The notes under the pieces were generated by a model. The model ran no database searches. It saw only the letters and a list, made by a program, of their open reading frames with translations, and was not told the origin of the DNA. Below, in pieces: positions 25,695-53,115 of a DNA stretch of 64,000 nt (position 1 is its first letter; every line of letters starts with the position of its first letter). The DNA comes from Streptomyces sp. NBC_00690 (GTDB taxonomy: Bacteria > Actinomycetota > Actinomycetes > Streptomycetales > Streptomycetaceae): contig NZ_CP109009.1 in NCBI RefSeq assembly GCF_036226685.1, forward strand, positions 3,782,001-3,846,000. The letters run 5' to 3'. The position numbers and the translations under genes are program-made.

Positions 25695-28637
25695 ATGGAC
25701 CGTGACCGCGGGCCACGCGTACCGGAGCAGCGCATTCCAGCGCCCAGTGACGTCATTGACCTGCGTTTCAGCGTGTTGGGGCCGGTACGGGCCTGGCGCG
25801 GTGGGGATCCCCTGCCCTCAGGATCACCCCAACAGCGGGCGCTGCTGGCCGCGCTGCTACTGCGGGACGGGCGCACGGCGACCGCAGCCGAGTTGATCGA
25901 CGCCATCTGGGGCGACGACCCGCCTTCGCAAGCGCTTGCAGCCGTCCGGACGTACGCGTCCCGGCTGCGCAAGGTCCTCTCGGTCAACGCTCTGGTCAGC
26001 GAATCAGGCGGCTACGCCATCCGGATACGGCGTGACTGCCTCGACCTCTCCACCGCCCAGGAACTGGCCGTCGAGGCGGAGAAGGCGCGTGCGACGGGTG
26101 ACCGCAACCATGCCAGGGCCCTGCTGAACAAGTCCCTCGGCCTCTGGGACGGCGAGGCGCTGGCCAATGTTCCGGGCCCGTACGCCGAGAGCCAGCGGGT
26201 ACGACTGGACGAATGGCGTCTGCAACTCCTGGAAACCCGACTGGAGCTCGATCTGGAATCGGGCTGCCACGCGGAGGCCGTATCGGAGTTGACCGCGCTC
26301 ACCGCGACACACCCACTGCGGGAGCGGCTGCGGGAACTGCTGATGCTGGCGCTCTACCGCAGCGGACGGCAGGCGGAGGCACTCGCCGTGTACGCGGACA
26401 CCCGACGGCTGCTCGCCGAGGAGTTGGGCGTCGACCCCCGTGCCGAACTCTCCCGGCTCCAGCAGCGCATCCTCCAGGCGGACGCCGAACTGGCCCGACC
26501 GAACGATGAGCAGGCGCCCGCGCCCCAGATCGCCCAGCCCGCCCAGCTGCCGGCCACGGTCCCCGACTTCACCGGGCGGGCCTCCTTCGTGCGCGAGTTG
26601 GGCGGCAAGCTCGCCACCGCCGAGGGTTCCGTCATGGCGGTCTCGGCACTCGCCGGCATCGGTGGCGTCGGCAAGACCACGCTGGCGGTCCACGTCGCCC
26701 ACGAGGCCAGGCCGCACTTCCCGGACGGGCAGCTCTACATCGACCTCCAGGGCGCGGGCAGCCGTGCCGCCGAACCGGTCGCGGTGCTGGGGGCGTTCCT
26801 GCGGGCGCTGGGCGTGCCCGACACCTCGATCCCCGACTCGCTGGCGGAACGCGCCGGGCTCTACCGCTCGACGCTCGCCGGCCGTCGGGTCCTGGTGCTC
26901 CTCGACAACGCTCGGGACGCCGCCCAGATCCGGCCCCTGCTGCCCGGTACGGCCGGATGTGCGGCCCTGGTCACCAGCCGGGTCAGGATGGTCGATCTGG
27001 CCGGGGCACATCTGGTGGACCTGGATGTGATGTCGCCGGACGAGGCCCTCCAGCTGTTCATGCGGATAGTGGGTGAGGAGCGGGTGGGCGCGGAACGTGA
27101 GTCCGCCCTCGACGTGGTCGCTGCCTGCGGCTTCCTTCCCCTGGCGATCCGCATCGCGGCCTCGCGGCTGGCGGCCCGGCGCACGTGGACGGTCTCCGTG
27201 CTCGCGGCCAAGCTCGCCGACGGGCGCCGCCGGCTCGATGAACTCCAGGCCGGCGACCTGGCGGTGAAGGCCACCTTCGAGTTGGGGTACGGCCAGTTGG
27301 AGCCCACCCAGGCCCGCGCCTTTCGGCTGCTGGGCCTCGCCGACGGCCCGGACATCTCGTTGACGGCCGCAGCCGCCGTCCTGGGGCTGCCCCTGCACGA
27401 GTCCGAGGACCTGTTGGAAGCCCTCGTCGACACCTCCCTGTTGGAGTCGGCGGCGCCAGGCCGCTACCGATACCACGATCTGGTACGCCTCTACGCCCGC
27501 TCCTGCTCCGAGCGCGACGAGACACCGCAGGAGGCCGAGGCGGCACTGTCGCGGCTGCTGGACTTCTATCTGGCGACGGCGGCACGGGTGTATGGGATGG
27601 AGCGCCCCGGCGACCGGCTCGTCGACCACGTCGGGCCGACCGTGCACGACGGGCTGGCCTTCGACGATCAGCGCGAGGCCCAGGACTGGCTGTACTCGGA
27701 GGCCAACTGCCTGCTGGCCGCGGCCCGACAGGCGACGGACGGGCACCGGCTCAGGCTGGCCGTCGACCTGCTGTGGGCCGCCCAGGACCTCGCCGAATCC
27801 GGCGCCAACTCCAAGTTGTACGAGATCGCTGCGACTGCCGTCGGCGATGCCGCCCGCACCTCGGGCGACCCGCGCACCGAGGCACGGGCCCGTACGTCGA
27901 TGACCAATGTCCACCTCGTGGCGGGCCGCTACGAGCACGCGGACGAGGAAGCCAAGGAGGCCGCGGCGCTCGCGGAAGCGGTTGCCGATCCGGCGCCCGT
28001 CTACTGGTCCGACAACGACCGCGGCATCATCGCCTTCAACCAGGGCCGCTTCAAGGAGGCCGAGGAGCATCTGCGCCGCGCCACGGAGGGCTCACGCGCC
28101 GACGGCAATCTGCCCGGAGAGGCGAGCGCCCTGTGCAACCTCTCCCGCATCCACCTGTCCACGGGACGGGTGGCCCAGGCGATCGCGCTGGCCGAGCAGG
28201 GGGTGGAGATCTACGACCGCATCGGGCACACCCTGCGGCTGGCGAACGCCCGCTATGCACTGGGGGTGGCACTGACCCAGGCGGGGCGGCCGACCGAAGC
28301 GCTGGAGCAGCTCTCGGAGGCGTTGGACCGCTTTGAGACAAGTCGACAGCGGCTGTGGGAGGGGACGACCCACTTCCGTATCGCCCAGGCCCACTACTCG
28401 GCACGACGTACGGCACGGGCCGCCCAACATGCCGAACAGGCCCTGGCGATCGGTTGCATCGGCGGGGACCGCACCCGGGCGAATGTGCTGATCACGCTCG
28501 GGAGGGCGCTGGCGGCGCTCGGCCAGGCGGACCGGGCGCGGGCCTGCTGGCTGGAGGCGTTGGCGCTGCACGAGGCATCGGGCGCGGTGGAGGCCGATGA
28601 GGTACGGGAGTTGCTGGCTCCGCTCAGCGCGGCCTGA
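25695..28637 (+). CDS. afsR: AfsR, SARP-family global regulator with NB-ARC and TPR domains
   Basis: A 980-residue pleiotropic activator of secondary metabolism. Domains in order: OmpR-like winged-helix DNA-binding (about 20-110, LRFSVLGPVRAWRGGDPLPSGSPQQRALLAALLLRDGRTA within it), BTAD (about 110-270), NB-ARC ATPase with Walker A GIGGVGKTT (about 321-329) and VLVLLDNARDA, and C-terminal TPRs (about 700-980). Length and N-terminus match S. coelicolor AfsR (about 993) rather than a cluster-specific SARP. AfsR is phosphorylated by AfsK, hydrolyses ATP and activates afsS. An afsS gene lies 572 bp downstream and an afsK gene about 27 kb away. The ATG at 25695 follows a G-rich site (gggggcag). Confidence 0.93.
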   Translation: MDRDRGPRVPEQRIPAPSDVIDLRFSVLGPVRAWRGGDPLPSGSPQQRALLAALLLRDGRTATAAELIDAIWGDDPPSQALAAVRTYASRLRKVLSVNALVSESGGYAIRIRRDCLDLSTAQELAVEAEKARATGDRNHARALLNKSLGLWDGEALANVPGPYAESQRVRLDEWRLQLLETRLELDLESGCHAEAVSELTALTATHPLRERLRELLMLALYRSGRQAEALAVYADTRRLLAEELGVDPRAELSRLQQRILQADAELARPNDEQAPAPQIAQPAQLPATVPDFTGRASFVRELGGKLATAEGSVMAVSALAGIGGVGKTTLAVHVAHEARPHFPDGQLYIDLQGAGSRAAEPVAVLGAFLRALGVPDTSIPDSLAERAGLYRSTLAGRRVLVLLDNARDAAQIRPLLPGTAGCAALVTSRVRMVDLAGAHLVDLDVMSPDEALQLFMRIVGEERVGAERESALDVVAACGFLPLAIRIAASRLAARRTWTVSVLAAKLADGRRRLDELQAGDLAVKATFELGYGQLEPTQARAFRLLGLADGPDISLTAAAAVLGLPLHESEDLLEALVDTSLLESAAPGRYRYHDLVRLYARSCSERDETPQEAEAALSRLLDFYLATAARVYGMERPGDRLVDHVGPTVHDGLAFDDQREAQDWLYSEANCLLAAARQATDGHRLRLAVDLLWAAQDLAESGANSKLYEIAATAVGDAARTSGDPRTEARARTSMTNVHLVAGRYEHADEEAKEAAALAEAVADPAPVYWSDNDRGIIAFNQGRFKEAEEHLRRATEGSRADGNLPGEASALCNLSRIHLSTGRVAQAIALAEQGVEIYDRIGHTLRLANARYALGVALTQAGRPTEALEQLSEALDRFETSRQRLWEGTTHFRIAQAHYSARRTARAAQHAEQALAIGCIGGDRTRANVLITLGRALAALGQADRARACWLEALALHEASGAVEADEVRELLAPLSAA

Positions 28638-29020
28638 CGACCGGGTCAGTAACCGGACGCCCCATTCCCGATGATGGTTGCCGGTCCGGCCCCTCTCTCG
28701 GAATGATGACCTCTCGGCCATCTGATCGAATGCCCGCTCGGGGTGTGGTGGTGCCCCGCCAAAGGAAAGCGGCGTGCGGGGCCGTCGTGCGAGCAGCGCA
28801 CCGGTGGCTGCTGAACGGCTTCCGGTGAGTGCCGGGCGGTGCGAGGGGCGCCGGATATGCGCCCGTGGTGCGTCACCGGTCCACCGGTCGAGTGATTTCC
28901 CGGCGCCGCGCCGCTCCCGGTTCGTCCGGGCCCGCTACCCGGAGCGTGTGCGTTCGCCCATGTCCGCTCCTGTGGACAAATCCGGCCGTCCGCCCCTCTG
29001 TGACAGCTTTCTGCCAGGAC
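28638..29020 (+). other. Intergenic region between afsR and the afsS promoter
   Basis: No gene or obvious terminator. Open frames present are unconvincing arginine/proline-rich shadows. The region leads into the afsS promoter described next. Confidence 0.5.
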
Positions 29021-29061
29021 GTTCATCGAATGTTTATGCCCGTCCGACATGCTCCTATCCA
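29021..29061 (+). promoter_or_regulatory. Probable AfsR/PhoP box and afsS promoter
   Basis: Two 11-bp direct repeats, GTTCATCGAAT (29021-29031) and GTTTATGCCCG (29032-29042), resemble the PHO-box units bound by PhoP and the overlapping AfsR site known at the afsS promoter -35 region. -10-like CATGCT (29048) and TATCCA (29056) follow. The context upstream of afsS supports the assignment; the transcription start is inferred. Confidence 0.6.
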
Positions 29062-29138
29062 GTCGATCCGTCGCGTCGGGGGGCAGACGGATCGCACAGG
29101 GCCCTCACCTCTCCGGGGGGAGAGTGAGTGTCCTATGG

Positions 29139-29180
29139 CCTTCCGTCCGGCGACCCTCGGGGGAGTCTCCGGGCGGAAGG
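29139..29180 (+). promoter_or_regulatory. Hairpin in the afsS leader (possible attenuator)
   Basis: A 12-bp near-perfect stem (29139-29150 with 29169-29180, one G-T type mismatch) and an 18-nt loop, followed by ctctttctggtt, lie between the promoter and the afsS start. The form resembles an intrinsic terminator. A smaller ctctcc/ggagag stem sits just before it (29109-29124). Confidence 0.5.
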
Positions 29181-29209
29181 CTCTTTCTGGTTCATCGAAA
29201 GGCAAACTC

Positions 29210-29647
29210 ATGGGGGACAAGATGAGCGACATGAACGACAAGGCCCCAGACGACATCACCACCTTGGGCGACCACCACACGCCCAACCCGCCGCGGGACG
29301 GGATCACCACCATGGGGGACCACCACACCCCCACCCCGCCCAAGGCCGGCGCCCTCACGCCGCAGGAAGACCGTCATACGCCCGTACCGCCCATCGACGC
29401 AGTCGTCACCACACTGGGCGACCACCACACCCCGACCCCGCCGCGGGACGCGGTGGCGCGGGACCACCACACGCCGGCGCCTCCTCGGGACGGGGTCGCC
29501 AGCACTCCGCTGGACCACCACACGCCCACACCTCCGCGGGACGGGATCATCACCACTCCGCTGGATCACCACACCCCCAACCCGCCCAAGGACGGCGGGC
29601 CGACGACGCAGGGCGACCACCACACGCCCGCAGCGCCGAGGTTCTGA
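29210..29647 (+). CDS. afsS: AfsS, expanded to eight DHHTP repeats
   Basis: A 145-residue repetitive protein directly downstream of afsR. After a short Met/Asp-rich start come eight units of 14-17 residues built on TT(L/M)GDHHTPxPP(R/K)D; unit 3 is degenerate (EDRHTP) and unit 5 shortened. S. coelicolor AfsS is 63 residues with far fewer units of the same type, and is an AfsR target that stimulates antibiotic production. The name 'sigma-like' used for it is historical; there is no sigma-factor domain here. The mechanism is unknown, and His-His/Pro-rich units could bind metal or a protein partner (inference). The ATG at 29210 follows AAAGG; ATG 29222, after GGGGGA, is equally possible, giving 141 residues. 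ATG 29135 lies inside the leader hairpin region. Confidence 0.85.
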   Translation: MGDKMSDMNDKAPDDITTLGDHHTPNPPRDGITTMGDHHTPTPPKAGALTPQEDRHTPVPPIDAVVTTLGDHHTPTPPRDAVARDHHTPAPPRDGVASTPLDHHTPTPPRDGIITTPLDHHTPNPPKDGGPTTQGDHHTPAAPRF

Positions 29648-30131: not shown

Positions 30132-31682
30132 ATGATCGAGATACCGGACCTGGCCGCCATCGGCCTGGCCGTAGGGACCCTGTCAGCGTTCGTCATGGGC
30201 GGCGGACTGCTGCGGTCACGTCGTCAACACGCGCGTCAGCATGACGAGATCGCGTCCCTCCGCGCGGATCTGGAATCGGCCCGCGAAGAAGTCGGCCGCA
30301 CCTCAAGGGCGATCACTGCCGAAGTGGTGCACCTCGCCCAACGCCGGCTCCCGGCCGCTGCGACCCAATCCGTGCATTCCCATATCAAGGTTCCCGGACC
30401 GCTCCGCCCCGACCTCCTGACCGGCAGCGCCTTGGGCGCCGGCCTCAACCAGGTGCTCGAAGGGCTGCTGTCCGCGGTGACGCAGGAGCGCAAGCGCGTC
30501 GACGCAGCCGCCCGCGCGGGCATGCGCGGCACCACCCGGGAGATCCAAGCCGGGCTGTACCGGCTCCAGGACGTCCTGCGCGGACTCCAACAGCGCTACG
30601 ACGAACCCGAACTGGCCGAGACCCTCTTCGCGCTCGACCACGAGAACGAACAGTCACTGCGCCGTGCCCAGGTCGCCGCCGTGGTCTGTGGTGCCTGGGT
30701 GGGACTCGCCCGCGAGGAATCCCATCTCGTGGACGCGGTGACCGGTGGCCAGTCACGGCTCGCCGGCTATCAGCGCATTCGGATCAGCAACCATCTTGAG
30801 GACGGCACGGCACTGGTCTCCCATGCCGTCGAGCCCGTCGCCATCATCGTCGCCGAACTGCTCGACAACGCGCTGCGCCACTCGTCCCCGGACACGGTGG
30901 TCACCGTGAATCTGGAGCGCGCCCACCACGGTGTCACCATCACCATGGATGACGCGGGCGTGGGCATGGCGCCTGACGAACGCACCTACGCACAGCGCAT
31001 GGTCGCGGGCAACGACCCCATCCTGCTGTCGGAGTTGGGCGATCCGCCGCGGATGGGACTGGCCGCGATCGGCCAACTGACCAGGCAGTTCGATCTTTCC
31101 GTCGATCTCTCGTCTCCCTCCCCCTACGGCGGGGTACGGGCGGTGCTGCTGGTCAAGAACCATCTGCTGAGCCACCTCGATCCCACGGTGCATCCGCCGT
31201 CCGCCGCCGCGCCGCACTCCACCAGGAACTCCCCCGGACCCCAGGGGCAGCCGACCGACGAGAGTCCCGCAGCGTCATCGACACCGGCCGCCGTGCCCGC
31301 AGAGCGCGGTGCGACCGCTCCGGAGCCTGCGGTGGTCCAGCCGTCACCGGCCCCGCCGGGCGGCGGCGGTGCCAGGTCGCCGCTGGAGGAGCCGATCACC
31401 CATGAAGCGGCGCCTTCCATGCCGCAGGGGGCCGAGAGCGATGCGCTGCCCCGCCGTCGTCGTCGGACCCGGCCCGACTCCGCCACCGGGGCATCCGTCA
31501 GGGCCCGCCCCTACGCCCCCGTACGCACCCCCGAACAGGCAGCGGCGGCCCTCGGGGCGCTGCAAGCGGGCACCCTGGCCGCCCGCAACGCCGAGCCCGT
31601 ACGAACCGAAGCCGAAACTCCGCGCGCAGCGGCCGAACCCCTGCGCAGCGCAGCCGAATGGGAAGGGAACGACCCCCGATGA
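30132..31682 (+). CDS. cvnA: Conservon sensor kinase-like protein CvnA
   Basis: The 516-residue membrane-anchored component of a conservon, the Streptomyces G-protein-like module. An N-terminal TM segment lies at about residues 8-27, then a coiled-coil-like stretch (HDEIASLRADLESAREEVG). A HATPase_c domain has N-box ELLDNALRHS (about 241) and G1 box DDAGVGM. There is no conserved phospho-acceptor H-box, as expected for CvnA. The C-terminal 150 residues are Pro/Ala/Arg-rich and disordered. CvnA binds the following small proteins at the membrane. Its stop codon overlaps the start of cvnB (ATGA), so expression is coupled. Which numbered conservon this equals cannot be decided here. Confidence 0.9.
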   Translation: MIEIPDLAAIGLAVGTLSAFVMGGGLLRSRRQHARQHDEIASLRADLESAREEVGRTSRAITAEVVHLAQRRLPAAATQSVHSHIKVPGPLRPDLLTGSALGAGLNQVLEGLLSAVTQERKRVDAAARAGMRGTTREIQAGLYRLQDVLRGLQQRYDEPELAETLFALDHENEQSLRRAQVAAVVCGAWVGLAREESHLVDAVTGGQSRLAGYQRIRISNHLEDGTALVSHAVEPVAIIVAELLDNALRHSSPDTVVTVNLERAHHGVTITMDDAGVGMAPDERTYAQRMVAGNDPILLSELGDPPRMGLAAIGQLTRQFDLSVDLSSPSPYGGVRAVLLVKNHLLSHLDPTVHPPSAAAPHSTRNSPGPQGQPTDESPAASSTPAAVPAERGATAPEPAVVQPSPAPPGGGGARSPLEEPITHEAAPSMPQGAESDALPRRRRRTRPDSATGASVRARPYAPVRTPEQAAAALGALQAGTLAARNAEPVRTEAETPRAAAEPLRSAAEWEGNDPR

Positions 31683-32110
31683 CCAGCCGCACCTCCCGCG
31701 AAACAGGCGACACGGCATGGGTACTCGATCCGATCCTGGAGATTCCCCATGTGCGTGCCGCCGTTCTGCTGACGCGGGACGGTCTGGTCTCCGGCTATTC
31801 CGATCGGCTGTCCAGGCCGTCCGCCGAGCGGGTCGCCGCGATCACCAGCACCGTGCAGGGCGCGTGCCGTACGGCGGCTGCGGCCTTCGCGGACGAGGAC
31901 AGTGCGGAGGTGCGGCAGGTCGTGGTCGAGTCGGACCACGGGTACATCCTGGTCGCGCCCACCCGTCACGGGACCTGTGTCGCGGCTTTCGGCGACCCGG
32001 AAGTCCGGTTGGACCTGTTGGCCCACCGGGTGCACTCGCAGGTGGCCCGGCTCGGCGAGAAGGCGATGAGTGCGGCACCCCGCGGAGTCGACGGCCCCGG
32101 TACCGCATGA
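31679..32110 (+). CDS. cvnB: Conservon roadblock/LC7 protein CvnB
   Basis: A 143-residue roadblock/LC7-fold protein (WVLDPILEIPHVRAAVLLTRDGLVSGYS.., GYILVAPTRHGTCVAAFG). The family regulates small GTPases as GAP-like or scaffold proteins; in conservons CvnB associates with CvnD and the kinase-like CvnA. It starts at the ATG overlapping the cvnA stop and ends at a TGA overlapping the cvnC start, both by 4 bp, giving a tightly coupled operon. Confidence 0.92.
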   Translation: MTSRTSRETGDTAWVLDPILEIPHVRAAVLLTRDGLVSGYSDRLSRPSAERVAAITSTVQGACRTAAAAFADEDSAEVRQVVVESDHGYILVAPTRHGTCVAAFGDPEVRLDLLAHRVHSQVARLGEKAMSAAPRGVDGPGTA

Positions 32111-32703
32111 CCGGACGCCGGGGCGGTCGGCCGCTGGTCCCCGCTTACCTGTCCACGGCAGGACGGGCCCGGCCGAGTCGCAACAGCCTGGAGCGTCTCT
32201 CGGTACTGACCGGGCTGGTCGGCGGTACGGACCCGGCCTCGCCGCAGGGCGGTCCCAGCGGGGACGGTCACGAGGGGTACGGGCCCCCAGCGAGCGGCGC
32301 CCGTACCCGGGCGACCGAGGCACCGGCCCTGGGCACACCGCCCGACGCCGATGACGCCGTGCCGCTCCCACCGGGATTCGCGACGGCGCACGACACCGCT
32401 CGTCCCATACCGCCCCCCGCGGCCGTCGTCAGCCCGCCGTGTCCACATCCGCCGAATCCGCCGCTGCCCGCCGATCTCACCGCCGCCCAGCGCAGCCTGC
32501 TGGAGGTCCTGGACGGCGGATCGCTGACCGTGGTCGAGACGGCTGCCCTGCTGGAACTGCCCGTGTCCGCCGTGCGTGTACTGGCGGCCCAGCTCATCGA
32601 CCGGGGGCTGGTCGCCTCCCGCCCACCGATCCCCCATGCCGCCCAGGCCCGCCCTGATCTGTTGGAGAGAGTCGCCGATGGTCTCCGCGCCCTCAAGCTC
32701 TAG
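32107..32703 (+). CDS. cvnC: Conservon DUF742 protein CvnC
   Basis: A 198-residue DUF742 protein. The conserved N-terminal block RPLVPAYLSTAGRARPSRNSLERLSVLT is followed by an unusually long Pro/Ala-rich insert (about residues 45-110). A C-terminal winged-helix-like part follows (LTAAQRSLLEVLDGG..VVETAALLELPVSAVRVLAAQLIDRGLV). Typical CvnC proteins are about 110-140 residues, so the insert accounts for the extra length. The exact role is unknown. It overlaps cvnD by 26 bp. Confidence 0.9.
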   Translation: MTGRRGGRPLVPAYLSTAGRARPSRNSLERLSVLTGLVGGTDPASPQGGPSGDGHEGYGPPASGARTRATEAPALGTPPDADDAVPLPPGFATAHDTARPIPPPAAVVSPPCPHPPNPPLPADLTAAQRSLLEVLDGGSLTVVETAALLELPVSAVRVLAAQLIDRGLVASRPPIPHAAQARPDLLERVADGLRALKL

Positions 32704-33322
32704 CGCCGCGCCGAGCGCCAGCGGCCCGTACGGCTCTAGCGGCCTGCACTTGCCGGACAGCGCCCGTGAACTGGTGAAGATCGTGGTTGCCGGCCCCTTC
32801 GGGGTCGGCAAGACGACGCTGATCGACTCGGTGTCCGAGATCCGACCGCTGCACACGGAGGAGCAGTTGACGGAGGCTTCCGTGTCGGTCGACGACCTCG
32901 CCGGGGTGCGGGACAAGACCACCACCACGGTCGCGATCGACTTCGGCCGGATCTCCCTGGACGGGGGAATCGTGCTGTACCTCTTCGGCACCCCTGGGCA
33001 GGAACGTTTCCGTGCACTGTGGAGCGACATCGCGTACGGGGCACTCGGCGCCCTGGTGCTCGTGGACACCCGGCGCATCGACGACTCCTTCGAGGTGTTG
33101 GGGCTGGTGGAGGAGTCGGGCCTGCCGTACGCGGTGGCGCTCAACACCTTCCCCGACTCCCGGCAGTACACGGTCGAGCAACTGCGCACCTCCCTCGATC
33201 TGGAGCCGAACACCCCGATGGTGGCCTGCGACGCCCGGGACCGGAACGCCTCCATCGATGCCCTCCTCGCCCTGGTCCAGCACCTGATATCCCGCGATGT
33301 CCCGAGTCCGGAGCCCAGCTGA
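32678..33322 (+). CDS. cvnD: Conservon small GTPase CvnD
   Basis: A 214-residue Ras-like GTPase. G1/P-loop GPFGVGKTT (about residues 38-46), switch-region Thr in KTTTTVAIDFG, and G3 GTPGQERF are visible. The G4 region reads ALNTFPD in place of the usual NKxD, common for the conservon GTPase group. The enzyme switches between GTP and GDP forms under CvnB control. The ATG at 32678 follows GGAGAGAG within the end of cvnC. Only 2 bp separate its stop from the P450 start. Confidence 0.92.
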   Translation: MVSAPSSSSAAPSASGPYGSSGLHLPDSARELVKIVVAGPFGVGKTTLIDSVSEIRPLHTEEQLTEASVSVDDLAGVRDKTTTTVAIDFGRISLDGGIVLYLFGTPGQERFRALWSDIAYGALGALVLVDTRRIDDSFEVLGLVEESGLPYAVALNTFPDSRQYTVEQLRTSLDLEPNTPMVACDARDRNASIDALLALVQHLISRDVPSPEPS

Positions 33323-33324
33323 CG

Positions 33325-34572
33325 ATGCATCCCGCCCATCTCGCCCCCTCCGCCGAAGCGTTCTCCCTCGCCACCCCGGTGCGCCTGTGGGAGGACGGTT
33401 TCGCCGCCGATCCCCACGGCCACTACGAGCGACTGAGGGCCCAGGGCCCGATCGGCTGGGCGGAACTCGCGCCCGGGGTGCCTGCGTACGTCGTCGTCGA
33501 CCGTCGGGCGGCTCTCGACCTGCTCCAGGACTCCGAGACCTGGTCCCGCGATCCGCGCCCGTGGGAAGTGACCGTCGCCGAGGACTCGCCGGTGCTGGGC
33601 ATGATGCGCTGGCGGCCCAACACCCTGTTCGCCGACGGCCAGGACCACCTTCGCTACCGACGCACCCTCGTCGACGCGTTCGCCCTGATCGAACCCCATG
33701 ACCTGCGTGAACTCGTCCACCGGGCGGTGGACGTCCTCGTCTCGGGGTTCGGCCCGGACGGCGGCGCGGATCTGGTGCGGGACTTCACCAGGCCACTGAT
33801 GGCCCTGGTCTTCAACAGTCTCTTCGGGCTGCCGGACCGCGAGGGCGACCGCCTCCGCGATTCCATCGGGGCGATGATGGAGGGCGGCGAGAAGGCGGCG
33901 CTGGGCGAGCAGGAGTACGGGCGCTACGTACTGGAGCTGATCGCTGCCAAGACCACCAAACGCGGCAACGACCTCACCAGTTGGCTGCTCGATCACCCAC
34001 TGGAGCTCACCCCCGAGGAGGTGACCTGGCAGGTCTTCCTCACCCTGGCGGCGGGCCTTGAACCGACCGCCAACCTGGTGTCGAACGCCCTCTCACGCAT
34101 CCTCGGCAATGCGGCGTACTACACCACCCTCACCAGCGGATCGCGTCCCATCATGGATGCCGTGATGGAGGTGCTGCGCTATGAGACCCCGATGTCCAAC
34201 TACGGCATCCACTACGCGCGTCAGCCCGTGAGCTTCCACGGCGTGTGGGTGCGCGAGGCGGTGCCGGTGGTGATCTCGTACGGCGCTCTCGCCCACTTCG
34301 CGGAGGTGGAGCAGCGGCCGGCCGGTGGGCACCATCCGCATGACGCCTCGCACCTGTCCTTCTCGGCGGGCCCGCACGCCTGCCCGGTCAAGCACCACAC
34401 GCTGCTCATCGCCACCGAGGCCATCGAGCGGCTGACCCAATGGCTACCGGACCTCGACCTCACCACCGCACGGCCCGACCTGACTTGGCGGCCCGGCCCG
34501 TTCCACCGCTGCCTCACCGCACTTCCCGTCCGCTTCACACCCCGTGCGCTCGATGTACCGGGAGCCCGCTGA
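33325..34572 (+). CDS. cvnE: Conservon-associated cytochrome P450 (CvnE)
   Basis: A 415-residue class I bacterial P450, last gene of the conservon operon. The I-helix AGLEPT, the K-helix ExxR as EVLR (about 281-284) and the heme Cys in FSAGPHACPVKH (about 350) are visible. The residue two after the Cys is Val rather than the usual Gly of FGxGxHxCxG, a notable departure. Substrates of conservon P450s are unknown and some may act as redox or ligand sensors. It starts 2 bp after cvnD, so it is surely co-transcribed. It ends 32 bp from the convergent gene. Confidence 0.9.
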   Translation: MHPAHLAPSAEAFSLATPVRLWEDGFAADPHGHYERLRAQGPIGWAELAPGVPAYVVVDRRAALDLLQDSETWSRDPRPWEVTVAEDSPVLGMMRWRPNTLFADGQDHLRYRRTLVDAFALIEPHDLRELVHRAVDVLVSGFGPDGGADLVRDFTRPLMALVFNSLFGLPDREGDRLRDSIGAMMEGGEKAALGEQEYGRYVLELIAAKTTKRGNDLTSWLLDHPLELTPEEVTWQVFLTLAAGLEPTANLVSNALSRILGNAAYYTTLTSGSRPIMDAVMEVLRYETPMSNYGIHYARQPVSFHGVWVREAVPVVISYGALAHFAEVEQRPAGGHHPHDASHLSFSAGPHACPVKHHTLLIATEAIERLTQWLPDLDLTTARPDLTWRPGPFHRCLTALPVRFTPRALDVPGAR

Positions 34573-48961: not shown

Positions 48962-49275
48962 CGTCCCGTCTGCGTCCCGCCCGTTGTGTCCGGGCGGGAC
49001 GCACCACGGTTCTGATCGATCGGTCGGGCAGTCGAGCGATCGAGCCGGGGCCGTGCCCGAATGGACCGCGGCGGTGTGTCCGATGAACGCTGTGACCTCG
49101 GCTGTTGGGCCGTTAGGGAGGGTCGCAGCGGCAGAAGAGTGCACAGATCGTGCGCGCGAGTGATTATCGGATCCGTATTGCCCGCTCACGGGAGTGTCGA
49201 CTGTGTCCCATTGGGTCAGCTGTTCAGCCTGTCAGGGAATTGCCGGACAAGGCGACCCACAGGAGAAGTCGACGT
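48962..49275 (+). other. 314-bp intergenic region with terminator and promoter zone
   Basis: Begins with the terminator of the FG-GAP gene. The rest holds no gene and should contain the promoter of the large repeat protein, whose ribosome site AGGAGAAG lies at 49261-49268. Confidence 0.6.
48971..49003 (+). terminator. Terminator of the FG-GAP gene
   Basis: Perfect 13-bp stem (48971-48983 and 48991-49003), 7-nt loop, starting 10 bp after the stop codon. Confidence 0.85.
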
Positions 49276-52200
49276 ATGAGAGCAACCCTCGCGCGACTGC
49301 GACAACGGTCGTGGACCTCAGGCCTGGCCTGTGTGGTCCTCGCCGTCACCGCGCCCGCGCTGGCTCTGGGGCCAACCATGCTGGCCGGTGCCGTACCGGT
49401 CAGCAAAGAACGAGCCACAACCGTCCAGGCCAAGGCCGCCGCACCCCTGCCGGGTGGGCTCGGTCCCTGTATCCCGGGCGACTGCCCCGATCCGTTCCCC
49501 CCGATCAGCAACGGGCCCATCATGGGCCGCGATGCCAACATCAACATCTTCGCCGGCGGTAACTTCCTGGTCCGCGAACGCGCGGCCGAAGCCGAGGGCA
49601 AGGTCGTCGTCCTCGGGAACTTCGACCAGGACAAGGTGGCCGGAGCCAGCTCCATCTACAACATCGGCATCGTCGGGGTGGGCTCACGCGTGCCGCCTCC
49701 TGCCGGTTCGGACTTCCTCACCACCGGTGGCAATGTCACCGTCGCGCCCGGGGAATCGCTGCTCGCCGACGGTGGAGTCGTACGCCACGCGGGTACGGCC
49801 ACCGGCACCATCACGGGCACCGTCATCCAGGACCCGAACGCGGCAGCTCCGTACACCGCGCTGCGCGATGAGCTGACGACATCGAGCCAGTGCTACGCCC
49901 GCAATGAGACCGGGCCCCGCCCGGCCACCGGAACCGCCGTCAACAACGGCGGCGAGACCTTGTTCACGGGCGACGGGACCTCAGCCCTCCAGGTCTTCAA
50001 CGTCGACTTCAACCTGACCACCGCTGGCGGCGGCCAGCAGGGCATCGTGTTCGCCAATATCCCGGCGAACGCCACCGTCCTGGTCAACCTCACGGGCGCC
50101 AACCGGATCATCAACACCTACAGCGGCAGCCCCTTCGACACCGACCCGCTGAACCAGCTGCGGGACCGGCTGTTGTGGAACTTCCCCGACGCGACCACCG
50201 TGGGCCTGCGCGGCACCGGACAGTTCCAGGGCAGTGTGCTCATCGGCAACCAGGCGTCGACGGCCACCGTCACGCTCCCCGGAGTGAACGGCCGCTTCTT
50301 CACCACCGGCAATGTCACCCACACCAGTGTGGTGGGCGCCGGCGGCGGCCAGGAGTTCCACGCGTACCCCTTCAACGGTGACCTGCCGGACTGCTCCGTG
50401 ATCCCGATGGCCCCCGTACAGGTCGTCAAGAGGGACTCCGAGACCCAGGCACCGCTCGCCGGAGCGACCTTCCAACTGTGGGAGGAGACCAACGGCACCG
50501 CCGGGCTCCAGACCACCGGGCCCAACCCGGACAGCACTGTCGGCACCCCCTGCGTCACCGGCGCTGACGGCACCTGCTCCCGCACGGTCAACCTGGGCCT
50601 CTACTACTGGCAGGAGACGGCACCACCGCCTGGGTACGACCTCCCGGCCAACCCGGTCTTCCCCGTGCTGCTGGAGGCCGACGACCTGCCGGCCGGTGTG
50701 AGTGTCAACGCCGACAACACGACGACCCCGGTGACGGGTGAGGTGTCGGTCGAGAAGACGGACTCGGCGAACGGAGAACCGCTCTCGGGTGCCGTCTTCC
50801 AGCTGTGGCAGGAGACCAACGGGATCCCCGGCCTCCAGACCACCGGAGCCGACCCCGACACCACGATCGGTGACCCGTGCACCACGGGCCTGATCGGTGA
50901 GTGCGCCGATACGGTCGGGCTCGGTACGTACTACTGGCAGGAGACCGCGGCACCGCCCGGCTACGACCTCCCCGCCAACCCCGTCTTCGGACCGCTGGAA
51001 CTGACCGCGGAGAACGCGGCGACCGGCGTGAGCGTGGCCGCCGAGAACACCGCGACCGTCCCGGTCACGGGTGATGTGACGGTCATCAAGTCGGATTCGG
51101 GCACGGGCGACCCGCTCGCTGGGGCGACCTTCCAGCTCTGGGAAGAGACCAACGGCATTCCCGGCCTCCAGACCACCGGAGCCGACCCCGACACCACCGT
51201 CGGCACTCCCTGTGTCACCGGCGCCGACGGCGACTGCACCCGGACCGTGGAAACCGGTACGTACTACTGGCAGGAGACCGCGGCACCGCCCGGCTACGAC
51301 CTGCCGGCCAACCCCGTCTTCGGACCGCTCGTCCTCACGGCCGCGAATGCCGCGGACGGTGTCACGGTGTTCGCGGAGAACACGGCGACGGCCCCGGTCA
51401 CGGGCGATGTGACGGTCATCAAGGAAGACGCCCAGACGGGCGACCCACTCGCCGGAGCGACCTTCCAGCTCTGGGAAGAGACCAACGGCGTACCCGGTCT
51501 CCAGACCACGGGCCCCAACCCGGACACGACGGTGGGCACCCCCTGCACCACCGGTGCTGATGGCGAATGCAGCCAGACCGTGGAAACCGGTACGTACTAC
51601 TGGCAGGAGACCGCAGCCCCCGACGGCTACGACCTCCCCGCCAACCCCGTCTTCGGACCGCTCGTCCTCACCAATGAGAACGCAGCCGACGGAGTCACCG
51701 TCACCGCCGAGAACACCGCAACCGTCGTGGTCACCGGCGATGTGACCGTCATCAAGGAAGACTCGGGCACGGGCGACCCCCTGGCCGGAGCGACCTTCCA
51801 GCTCTGGGAAGAGACCAACGGCGTACCCGGACTCCAGACCACCGGAGCCGACCCCGACACGACGGTGGGCACCCCCTGTGTCACCGGCGCCGACGGCGAG
51901 TGCACCCGCACGGTCGAGATCGGCACCTACTACTGGCAGGAAACGGCGGCACCGCCCGGCTATGACCTGCCGGCCAGCCCCGTCTTCGGACCGCTCGTCC
52001 TCACTGCGGAGAACGCCGCAGACGGAGTCACCGTCACCGCGGAGAACACGGCGACGGCCCCGGTCACGGGCGATGTGACGGTCGTCAAGGAAGACGCTGA
52101 AACCGGTGACCCGCTCGCCGGAGCCGTCTTCCAGCTCTGGGAGGAGACCAACGGTGTAGCTGGTCTCCAGACCACCGGGCCCAACCCGGACACCACCATT

Positions 52201-53115
52201 GGCTCCCCCTGCACCACGGGCGCCAACGGTGAATGCAGCCAGACCGTGGAAACCGGTACGTACTACTGGCAGGAGACGGCGGCACCGCCCGGCTACGACC
52301 TGCCGGCCAACCCCGTCTTCGGACCGCTGGTCCTCACCAATGAGAACGCCGCAGACGGAGTCACCGTCACCGCCGAGAACACCGCAACTGCGGCCGTCAC
52401 CGGCGATGTGACCGTCATCAAGGAAGACGCCGAAACCGGTGACCCGCTCGCCGGAGCCGTCTTCCAACTGTGGGAGGAGACCAACGGCATTCCCGGTCTC
52501 CAGACCATCGGCATCAACCCGGACACGACGGTGGGCACCCCCTGCACCACCGGCGCCGACGGCGACTGCACCCGCACGGTCGAGATCGGTACGTACTACT
52601 GGCAGGAGACCGCAGCCCCCGACGGCTACGACCTCCCCGCCAACCCCGTCTTCGGACCCCTCGTCCTCACCAATGAGAACGCCGCAGACGGAGTCACCGT
52701 CACCGCGCAGAACACCGCGAGCCCGACGGACACCGGCACGATCACGCTCCACAAGATCGACCACAAGACCGGCCGTGACCTGGCCGGGGCGGTCTTCCAG
52801 CTGTGGCGCGAGAGCAACGGCGTGCCCGGTCTCCAGATCAGAGGGTCCCTCGGCATTCCGGCCGACACCCTGACCGGTGCCGCCTGCTCCACCGACGACA
52901 CCGGCACCTGTGTCTTCGACGATCTGCCGACGGGGACGTACTACCTGCTGGAGACGGACGTGCCCGAGGGCTATGAGCTCCCGCGCAACCCGGTCTTCGG
53001 CCCGTACATCCTCACCGCGGAGAACGTCGATGAGGGAGTGGACGTGACCATCACCAACAAGCGTGGTGAGCACGGCAAGGGCAAGGGAGACGAGGACAAG
53101 CCCCACCAGGGCTGA
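49276..53115 (+). CDS. Secreted surface protein: choice-of-anchor A domain plus eight Cna-B/SpaA-like domains
   Basis: A 1279-residue exported protein. The signal peptide is residues 1-38 or so. A choice-of-anchor-A domain spans about 75-365 ([14 protein letters not shown].. to [30 protein letters not shown]). Eight domains of about 110 residues follow from about 378 to 1265. Each begins (D)[17 protein letters not shown](T/V)FQLW and contains [22 protein letters not shown] and a last strand with AENTA. The Lys, Glu and Asn at these places fit the isopeptide triad of Cna-B folds. Each domain also has a Cys pair (TPC..TGADGxC), a probable disulfide. There is no LPxTG, TM helix or GW anchor; the protein ends in a charged [16 protein letters not shown] tail. 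ATG 49276 follows AGGAGAAG. It is likely a fibrous wall or adhesion protein. Confidence 0.88.
50407..53055 (+). repeat. Eight direct repeats of about 330 bp encoding Cna-B-like domains
   Basis: Domains 3-7 are near-identical in protein and keep long identical DNA stretches, while 1, 2 and 8 are more divergent. This suggests that the middle units expanded recently by unequal recombination. Confidence 0.85.

Follow-up and report, generated by a model that had tools for sequence, protein, structure and literature searches.

The locus analysed here raises the question of what the repeat units of AfsS recognise, and why one Streptomyces carries eight of them. In S. coelicolor, AfsS has 63 residues with three 12-residue repeats, the length that had been taken as the reference in the preliminary description of this DNA, and actinorhodin production goes up with its overexpression and down with its disruption (PMC2267785). 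Its mode of action is called 'as yet unknown' in PMC10972967, and a review states that it acts by binding upstream of the act and red regulatory genes (PMC6988585). The S. coelicolor afsS gene is activated from an afs box by AfsR, whose SARP domain is kept in check by the NOD and TPR parts and released by ATP; according to the same study, no inducer is known for the AfsR sensor (PMC10936776).

The window (the whole stretch analysed, 64,000 nucleotides long and part of a 9.17-Mb Streptomyces genome) contains afsR at 25695..28637 and, directly 3' of it on the same forward strand, afsS at 29222..29647. AfsR scores 1753 bits against NF053617 (cut-off 1430) with Pfam matches to BTAD, NB-ARC and TPR, and its domain borders, placed after those of S. 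coelicolor in PMC10936776, are SARP 1-265, NOD/NB-ARC 266-612, ARM 613-770 and TPR 771-980. The window AfsS resembles AfsS/AfsR2 of S. coelicolor and S. lividans (NF053616) as a small tandem-repeat protein behind afsR and an afs-box-like operator, and differs from them in having eight short tandem units instead of three, a DHHTP core and a score of 57.4 bits (in three stretches) which does not reach the cut-off of 60 of the NCBIfam equivalog model NF053616. The repeat reading frame is the sole match in the window's genome at E 0.001. The model is narrow, since its cut-off is passed in just 61 of 392 Streptomyces genomes (128 of 392 are matched at E 0.01); the window protein is therefore an AfsS orthologue by locus and build and no certified NF053616 member. 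A protein homologue search with AfsS as query gave no match at E 0.001 among 2009 candidates, Pfam none at E 0.1 and the PDB none at E 1. The start is uncertain and is either the ATG at 29210 (145 residues) or the ATG at 29222 (141 residues); an MS/MSD start, as from the second ATG, is common in the AfsS family, and the sister species S. albipurpureus has GTG where the window gene has its first ATG. Third codon positions of the frame are 89% G+C, as expected of a Streptomyces gene. A translated product is likely in the window strain because of this composition, because the cores are kept despite synonymous change and because high signals of both RNA and ribosome footprints are recorded for the homologue of S. 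griseus (PMC8914203).

Upstream of the gene, the forward strand carries at 29020..29041 an afs-box-like operator of two 11-bp direct repeats (CGTTCATCGAA / TGTTTATGCCC), assigned from its sequence only; repeat one fits the published consensus CGTT(T/C)ATCGNN (PMC10972967) and repeat two departs from it at three of the nine defined bases. Of 159 loci, four of them from outside Streptomyces, 150 have a pair of the GTTCA..GTTTA type behind afsR, and in these 150 a conserved leader follows the pair. In the window, the structured afsS mRNA leader spans 29054..29193 on the forward strand, with hairpins P1 (about 29065-29093) and P3 (about 29137-29182) and a fold z of -3.5. Among 66 chosen sequences the hairpins covary (167 double-changed cells against 50.4 after shuffling), and pairing is kept in 93.6% of cells against 34-49% when the partners are slid by 1-3 columns. 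The leader model R1 matched all of 25 Streptomyces genomes, 24 with an E value no higher than 4.3e-10 and one with 0.0024, and gave weak matches in three of 16 other genomes (0.0345, 4.9e-4 and 0.0054); in the window's genome it matched at afsS alone. Covarying two-hairpin leaders with G-rich loops, like that at 29054-29193, are also seen at L073-L222. Rfam gave one sub-threshold match between 28500 and 30200 (P35, 25.7 bits against 70) and no family at threshold.

The units begin at residues 21, 37, 54, 71, 85, 102, 119 and 136 of the 145-residue reading (29270-29644), with a spacing of 14-17 residues. All are on the forward strand: unit 1 (DHHTPNPPRDGITTMG, 29270..29317), unit 2 (DHHTPTPPKAGALTPQE, 29318..29368), unit 3 (DRHTPVPPIDAVVTTLG, 29369..29419), unit 4 (DHHTPTPPRDAVAR, 29420..29461, 14 residues), unit 5 (DHHTPAPPRDGVASTPL, 29462..29512), unit 6 (DHHTPTPPRDGIITTPL, 29513..29563), unit 7 (DHHTPNPPKDGGPTTQG, 29564..29614) and unit 8 (DHHTPAAPRF, 29615..29644). 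The core is DHHTP without deviation in seven units and DRHTP in unit 3; none of 20,000 residue shufflings gave more than one DHHTP (mean 0.005). The first 27 bases of the units are 56-93% identical among themselves. The preliminary description of an AfsS with eight units is thus borne out, as eight DxHTP units in 141 or 145 residues. Its DHHTPxPP consensus with strict DHHTP cores agrees with the seven identical cores and fails in unit 8 (DHHTPAAP) and unit 3, and of the two deviant units that it named, DRHTP is indeed the third, whereas the short one is number 4 and not 5. The array was also said to be ageing rather than new, and this is upheld by the DRHTP third unit of S. albipurpureus. The first and the last two units of the two species align and the interior differs by one unit; the expansion is probably older than their split, because the DRHTP unit is common to both and the end units align.

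Unit number was compared in a survey anchored on AfsR, since NF053616 alone misses most orthologues; an AfsR match was found in 388 of the 392 sampled genomes. The survey covered 314 loci, namely 309 sampled genomes (the window among them) and five named records, some of which may repeat a sampled species; L034 and L333 share an identical AfsS, and L267 was excluded as the same species as L031 by protein. A repeat array lies behind afsR in 309 of the 314 loci, the loci without a detected array being L129, L140, L216, L304 and L387 (the last cut by a contig end). Nine arrays were set aside, three in which a secreted neighbour had been picked instead (L146, L400 and L412) and six by hand for a wrong register or odd reading (L157, L158, L371, L380, L384 and L394), although at least L146, L157, L158, L371, L380 and L384 do have an AfsS-like array. 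The 300 clean arrays have a median of three units: two in 24 proteins, three in 155, four in 87, five in 17, six in seven, seven in seven, eight in two and nine in one. The window array is hence expanded, as the preliminary description had proposed. At least eight units were counted in three of the 300, from the window, S. albipurpureus and the unrelated L396; S. albipurpureus was counted as eight, but inspection by eye gives nine, its unit 7 (DHQAP) falling outside the counting rule. The AfsS of L396 (genome G072) is an independent expansion of nine DSNRP units, mostly DSNRPIQPM, with no core His. Long arrays evidently arose more than once. Eight units had seemed unique to the window in an initial survey, whose 150 loci mostly scored high for AfsR; this view was dropped when the wider survey gave other long arrays (EGHTP with seven units, DSNRP with nine, DEHAG with seven and DHHMP with six). 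Eight is not the rule of the whole clade, since on the first AfsR tree a group of nine DHH species (support 0.995) has from two to nine units. The DHH core as the mark of one clade was likewise given up, as a larger tree groups ten of 14 species with His at position 2 at support 0.72 and four lie apart. Between the close relatives L191 and L177, both with DHHAP cores, the number is two and four, pointing to quick loss or gain.

The sequence of the core behaves differently within and between proteins. Position 2, the first His in the window, is the most variable core position, with 14 different residues among the 300 proteins, and proteins agree at it in 14% of comparisons. Among units matched on the other four positions, it is uniform within 297 of 300 proteins; pairwise, units of the same protein share it in 1486 of 1503 cases, and it differs between species. 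Something holds every unit of a protein to one specificity while that specificity drifts.

A candidate for this influence was found in AfsR. Co-change was measured on a tree of 245 full-length AfsR proteins, the other 55 of the 300 having no complete AfsR sequence. This tree has 39 changes at core position 2, on branches enriched for changes in the ARM (+6.4 sd) and TPR (+3.0 sd) domains and depleted for changes in SARP (-5.1 sd) and NOD (-5.3 sd). The other core positions gave +4.7 sd for TPR (positions 3 and 4), +3.5 sd for TPR (position 5) and +3.4 sd for ARM (position 1), while unit number (two to nine) showed no co-change with AfsR on the tree. The ARM-TPR part is encoded at 27531..28634 on the forward strand and, by its AlphaFold2 model and its co-changing residues, is proposed as the receptor groove for the AfsS units; the residues are 694, 697, 738, 741, 742, 768, 775, 781, 789, 808, 814, 822, 840, 848, 891 and 917. 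The earlier suggestion that the units dock on a partner such as RNA polymerase is thereby supported in a form which it did not name, as coevolution of the units with the AfsR ARM-TPR domain.

Because afsR and afsS are adjacent, joint recombination can mimic part of this co-change: if the 3' end of afsR and afsS were replaced together, the two would share branches without any binding. The fixed place of the array behind afsR (309 of 314 loci) and the C-terminal position of the AfsR columns that carry the signal are in line with such hitch-hiking. The ten controls were traits of equal linkage: unit number, two N-terminal residues (4 and 6), the last residue, the fifth-last one, and residues -1, -2, 6, 7 and 8 around the core. 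On the full tree none of them gave more than one column over the null 95% maximum, whereas the core positions gave 2-9. Some controls nevertheless lean in the same way on that tree, namely N-terminal residue 4 (SARP -2.7, TPR +2.7 sd), N-terminal residue 6 (ARM +2.4 sd) and residue -1 (SARP -3.1 sd). On a tree built from SARP and NOD only, the core positions had 4-20 columns over threshold and seven of the ten controls one or two, and the domain pattern of N-terminal residue 4 resembled that of the core. The signal does not grow toward the 3' end; for position 2 it peaks at residues 694-778 of 980. Moreover, when the tree was split into 147 and 98 species, the position-2 columns of each half recurred in the other, with scores of 3.17 and 2.43 where random C-terminal columns gave 0.51 (p 0.0002 in each direction). 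Cross-validation was modest for position 4 (p 0.028 and 0.023), mixed for position 5 (0.10 and 0.002) and weak for position 1 (0.74 and 0.07); position 3 changes in one half alone and stands outside it. Taking both sides together, we regard hitch-hiking as an unlikely source of the whole signal.

AfsS could also dock on RNA polymerase or a sigma factor, with AfsR merely following. The 'sigma-like' label of AfsS and its stationary-phase phenotype (PMC2267785) speak for such docking, but in our judgement a slow-evolving polymerase surface is a poor source of 39 changes at position 2, and we consider this explanation improbable. Direct action at the act and red promoters, as stated in the review PMC6988585, may also take place.

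The arrangement of the co-changing residues was compared with the predicted structure of AfsR itself, the partner that we favour. The AlphaFold2 model of residues 600-980 consists of helical repeats (mean pLDDT 93.3), in which inner and outer helices were assigned from the model and the Pfam TPR register. Columns with z of at least 4.5 were found at 21 of 81 inner-helix against 7 of 110 outer-helix positions (p 0.0003), a preference which fades at z 3.0 (30 of 81 against 28 of 110, p 0.11) and z 2.5 (p 0.77). The scores peak in the N-terminal repeats for core positions 2 and 4 and in the C-terminal repeats for positions 3 and 5; those for position 1 are mixed, their top residue, 848, belonging to the C-terminal half. 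A period-40 spacing of the co-changing residues was rejected as support, its significance being limited to high thresholds (p 0.0018 at z 4.5, 0.043 at z 3.5 and 0.24 at z 3.0).

The residue pairs between core and AfsR, tabulated as raw counts not corrected for descent, make chemical sense. All 216 proteins with His at core position 3 have Tyr or Phe at AfsR residue 840; where the core has Ala, Ser, Pro or Asn instead, this residue is His (23 of 24), where it has Gly the residue is Tyr (four of four), and in the one protein with Gln it is Leu. At residue 808, core His is paired with Gly in 208 of 216 proteins, Ala (9/11) and Pro (4/4) with Phe, Gly (4/4) with Leu and Asn (4/4) with Cys, while the residue is mixed with Ser; these swaps look as if they were filling a cavity. 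Residue 848 is Arg in all 169 proteins with Asp or Glu at core position 1 and Lys in 58 of 76 with Asn, and residue 891 is Met in all 150 with Thr at position 5 and another residue in 70 of 77 with Pro. At position 2, Asn goes with Lys at residue 697 in 73 of 75 proteins, His with Gln in 13 of 14 and Met with Leu in all 19. Asn changed to His there on four branches, which hinge on tree resolution (L165 shifts between trees). AfsR697 changed from Lys to Gln on each of them, so that the window's His pair seems to have arisen repeatedly in response to the same change of the receptor. Permutation gave p of at most 0.0042 for 16 of 18 pairs, all picked after seeing the scores, and the pairs at 832 and 780 failed (p 0.20 and 0.41). 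In an alignment to PDB 8k60, Q697, G808, Y840, R848 and T891 of the window correspond to K710, G821, Y853, R861 and A904 of S. coelicolor, and by the pair tables these pocket residues would be predicted to match a core D-N-H-x-P.

These pairs also bear on homotypic contact, in which the units bind one another and must match, the AfsR link being indirect. Such contact would account for the identity of units within a protein, but it predicts no matching AfsR residues such as Tyr-His at 840 and Arg-Lys at 848, and arrays of two widely spaced units exist; it is judged very unlikely.

The same low standing falls to pure concerted evolution, in which unequal crossing-over or gene conversion would keep the units alike with no partner involved. 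Unit number does change often (68 changes), and in L199 (10 of 10) and L165 (16 of 20) the identical four-fold codons resemble recent copying. In general, however, a residue that recurs among the units of a protein keeps its four-fold codon in 1632 of 2970 comparisons (0.549 against 0.480 expected), so the units are mostly not fresh copies. Cores that agree while synonymous codons and linkers mostly differ are a pattern which DNA copying cannot cause, and copying would give no AfsR link. In 57 pairs, the two proteins have the same number of units (at least three) and linkers that are 62% or more alike, while each has its own uniform core; these pairs cover 25 kinds of core change, and in several of them the bases reveal mutations that were independent. 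Unit by unit, L277 has the Ala codons GCC, GCC and GCG where L197 has the Val codons GTC, GTC and GTG; L402 and L328 both keep the proline codons CCC, CCG and CCG and differ in all three cores, Ser against His. Seven of 39 proteins with Ser at position 2, all from one group of relatives, mix AGC and TCN codons. Related species change all units in parallel through point mutation, and this parallel evolution is linked to AfsR residues.

Metal binding by the His-His units, proposed in the preliminary description and suggested by the 15 His among 145 residues (all but one of them paired), is the least probable reading of all and is not supported as a general function, because the second core His is missing in 35 of 300 orthologues, HH being found in 15 of 300 and the first His standing at the most variable position.

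The shift of the units in step with the AfsR groove suggests that they are the molecule bound by the AfsR sensor part. We consider it likely that AfsS serves the AfsR sensor domain as a multivalent peptide ligand and that the pocket of this domain keeps the units changing together. In this mechanism AfsR would bind the operator at 29020-29041, as the operator itself suggests for the window, and transcribe afsS. The AfsS chain, probably disordered and multivalent, would then place the five-residue core of each unit, usually [D/E/N]-x-H-x-[T/P/S/G], in the groove of the ARM-TPR superhelix; in the window, D-H-H-T-P would face Q697, R848, Y840 and T891 of AfsR among others. The units would have to change together with the pocket because all of them are proposed to meet the same one, and linkers and unit number would stay free. 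Repeat number may tune the potency or valency of AfsS, as the preliminary description proposed, and eight units would raise the local ligand concentration or gather several AfsR molecules; the building of oligomers is only a guess, because AfsR runs mainly as a monomer (PMC10936776). Positive feedback would fit the effects of AfsS overexpression and disruption, and either activation or restraint of AfsR is allowed. We infer the binding, its orientation and its valency from the pattern of sequence change. High-copy afsS is active in afsR mutants, which would imply a target other than AfsR and weighs against this reading.

Such a pair would have partial parallels in known systems. The RRNPP pairs (Rap-Phr, ComR-ComS, NprR) also have adjacent genes, a TPR receptor and a short peptide (PMC10075063), and their receptor and peptide coevolve (PMC8605241). 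AfsR differs in that it is a SARP-NOD-TPR protein and not one of HTH and TPR, and AfsS in that it starts MSDMNDKAPDD, with no hydrophobic stretch by eye and without the look of a signal peptide. AfsS is not known to be processed or imported. The solved folds nearest to the ARM-TPR model are LGN/Pins with Inscuteable or NuMA (E 1e-8), for which structure titles name tetramers and hetero-hexamers with ligand; these are eukaryotic polarity proteins with a TPR part that binds peptides, and identity is 16-20% among the LGN/Pins matches listed. At rank 47 of the fold search stands the phage phi3T Rap with the pheromone RGHTS, a receptor that binds RGHTS-type peptides and whose propeptide holds two pheromone copies (PMC11343458); its resemblance to AfsR-AfsS is read as likeness and not kinship. 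MalT and other bacterial STAND activators share with AfsR a NOD and a sensor domain and are inducer-gated (PMC10936776); MalT senses maltotriose, whereas for AfsR a protein ligand is proposed.

Further observations concern the neighbouring genes. Right behind afsS, in some species, lies a small secreted-looking protein with DxH repeats (for example ALADTHISVTPQDTHISVTPQDTHIS), whose signal-peptide-like start is assigned by pattern alone. It was seen by eye in 15 of 155 loci and in more in the wider survey (L111, L131, L141, L146, L156, L196, L400 and others), about 490-670 bases past the afsR stop, and its cores vary more than the AfsS cores do. No such protein was seen beside afsS in the window, and a single distant query found none in the window's genome. 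Behind afsS, the window at 30132-34572 encodes HATPase (histidine-kinase-like), roadblock and small GTPase-like proteins and has a weak cytochrome P450 match, a gene set which we take to be conservon-like. At 49150-53115 lies a reading frame of 1321 residues with eight stretches matching SpaA prealbumin-like domains, an ice-binding-like adhesive domain and 333-base tandem repeats at 50452-52720; it is probably a surface adhesin.

A bolder and speculative extension, to which we give a small chance, is that AfsR and AfsS form a peptide-receptor signalling pair of Streptomyces' own with a lineage-specific five-letter code, which the secreted-looking neighbours would carry outside the cell for cell-to-cell recognition in antibiotic control. 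If the units are the ligand of AfsR, one interaction would answer both how AfsS acts and what the AfsR sensor binds, and afsS would become a feedback gene. Antibiotic output might then perhaps be tuned by short peptides or by unit number.
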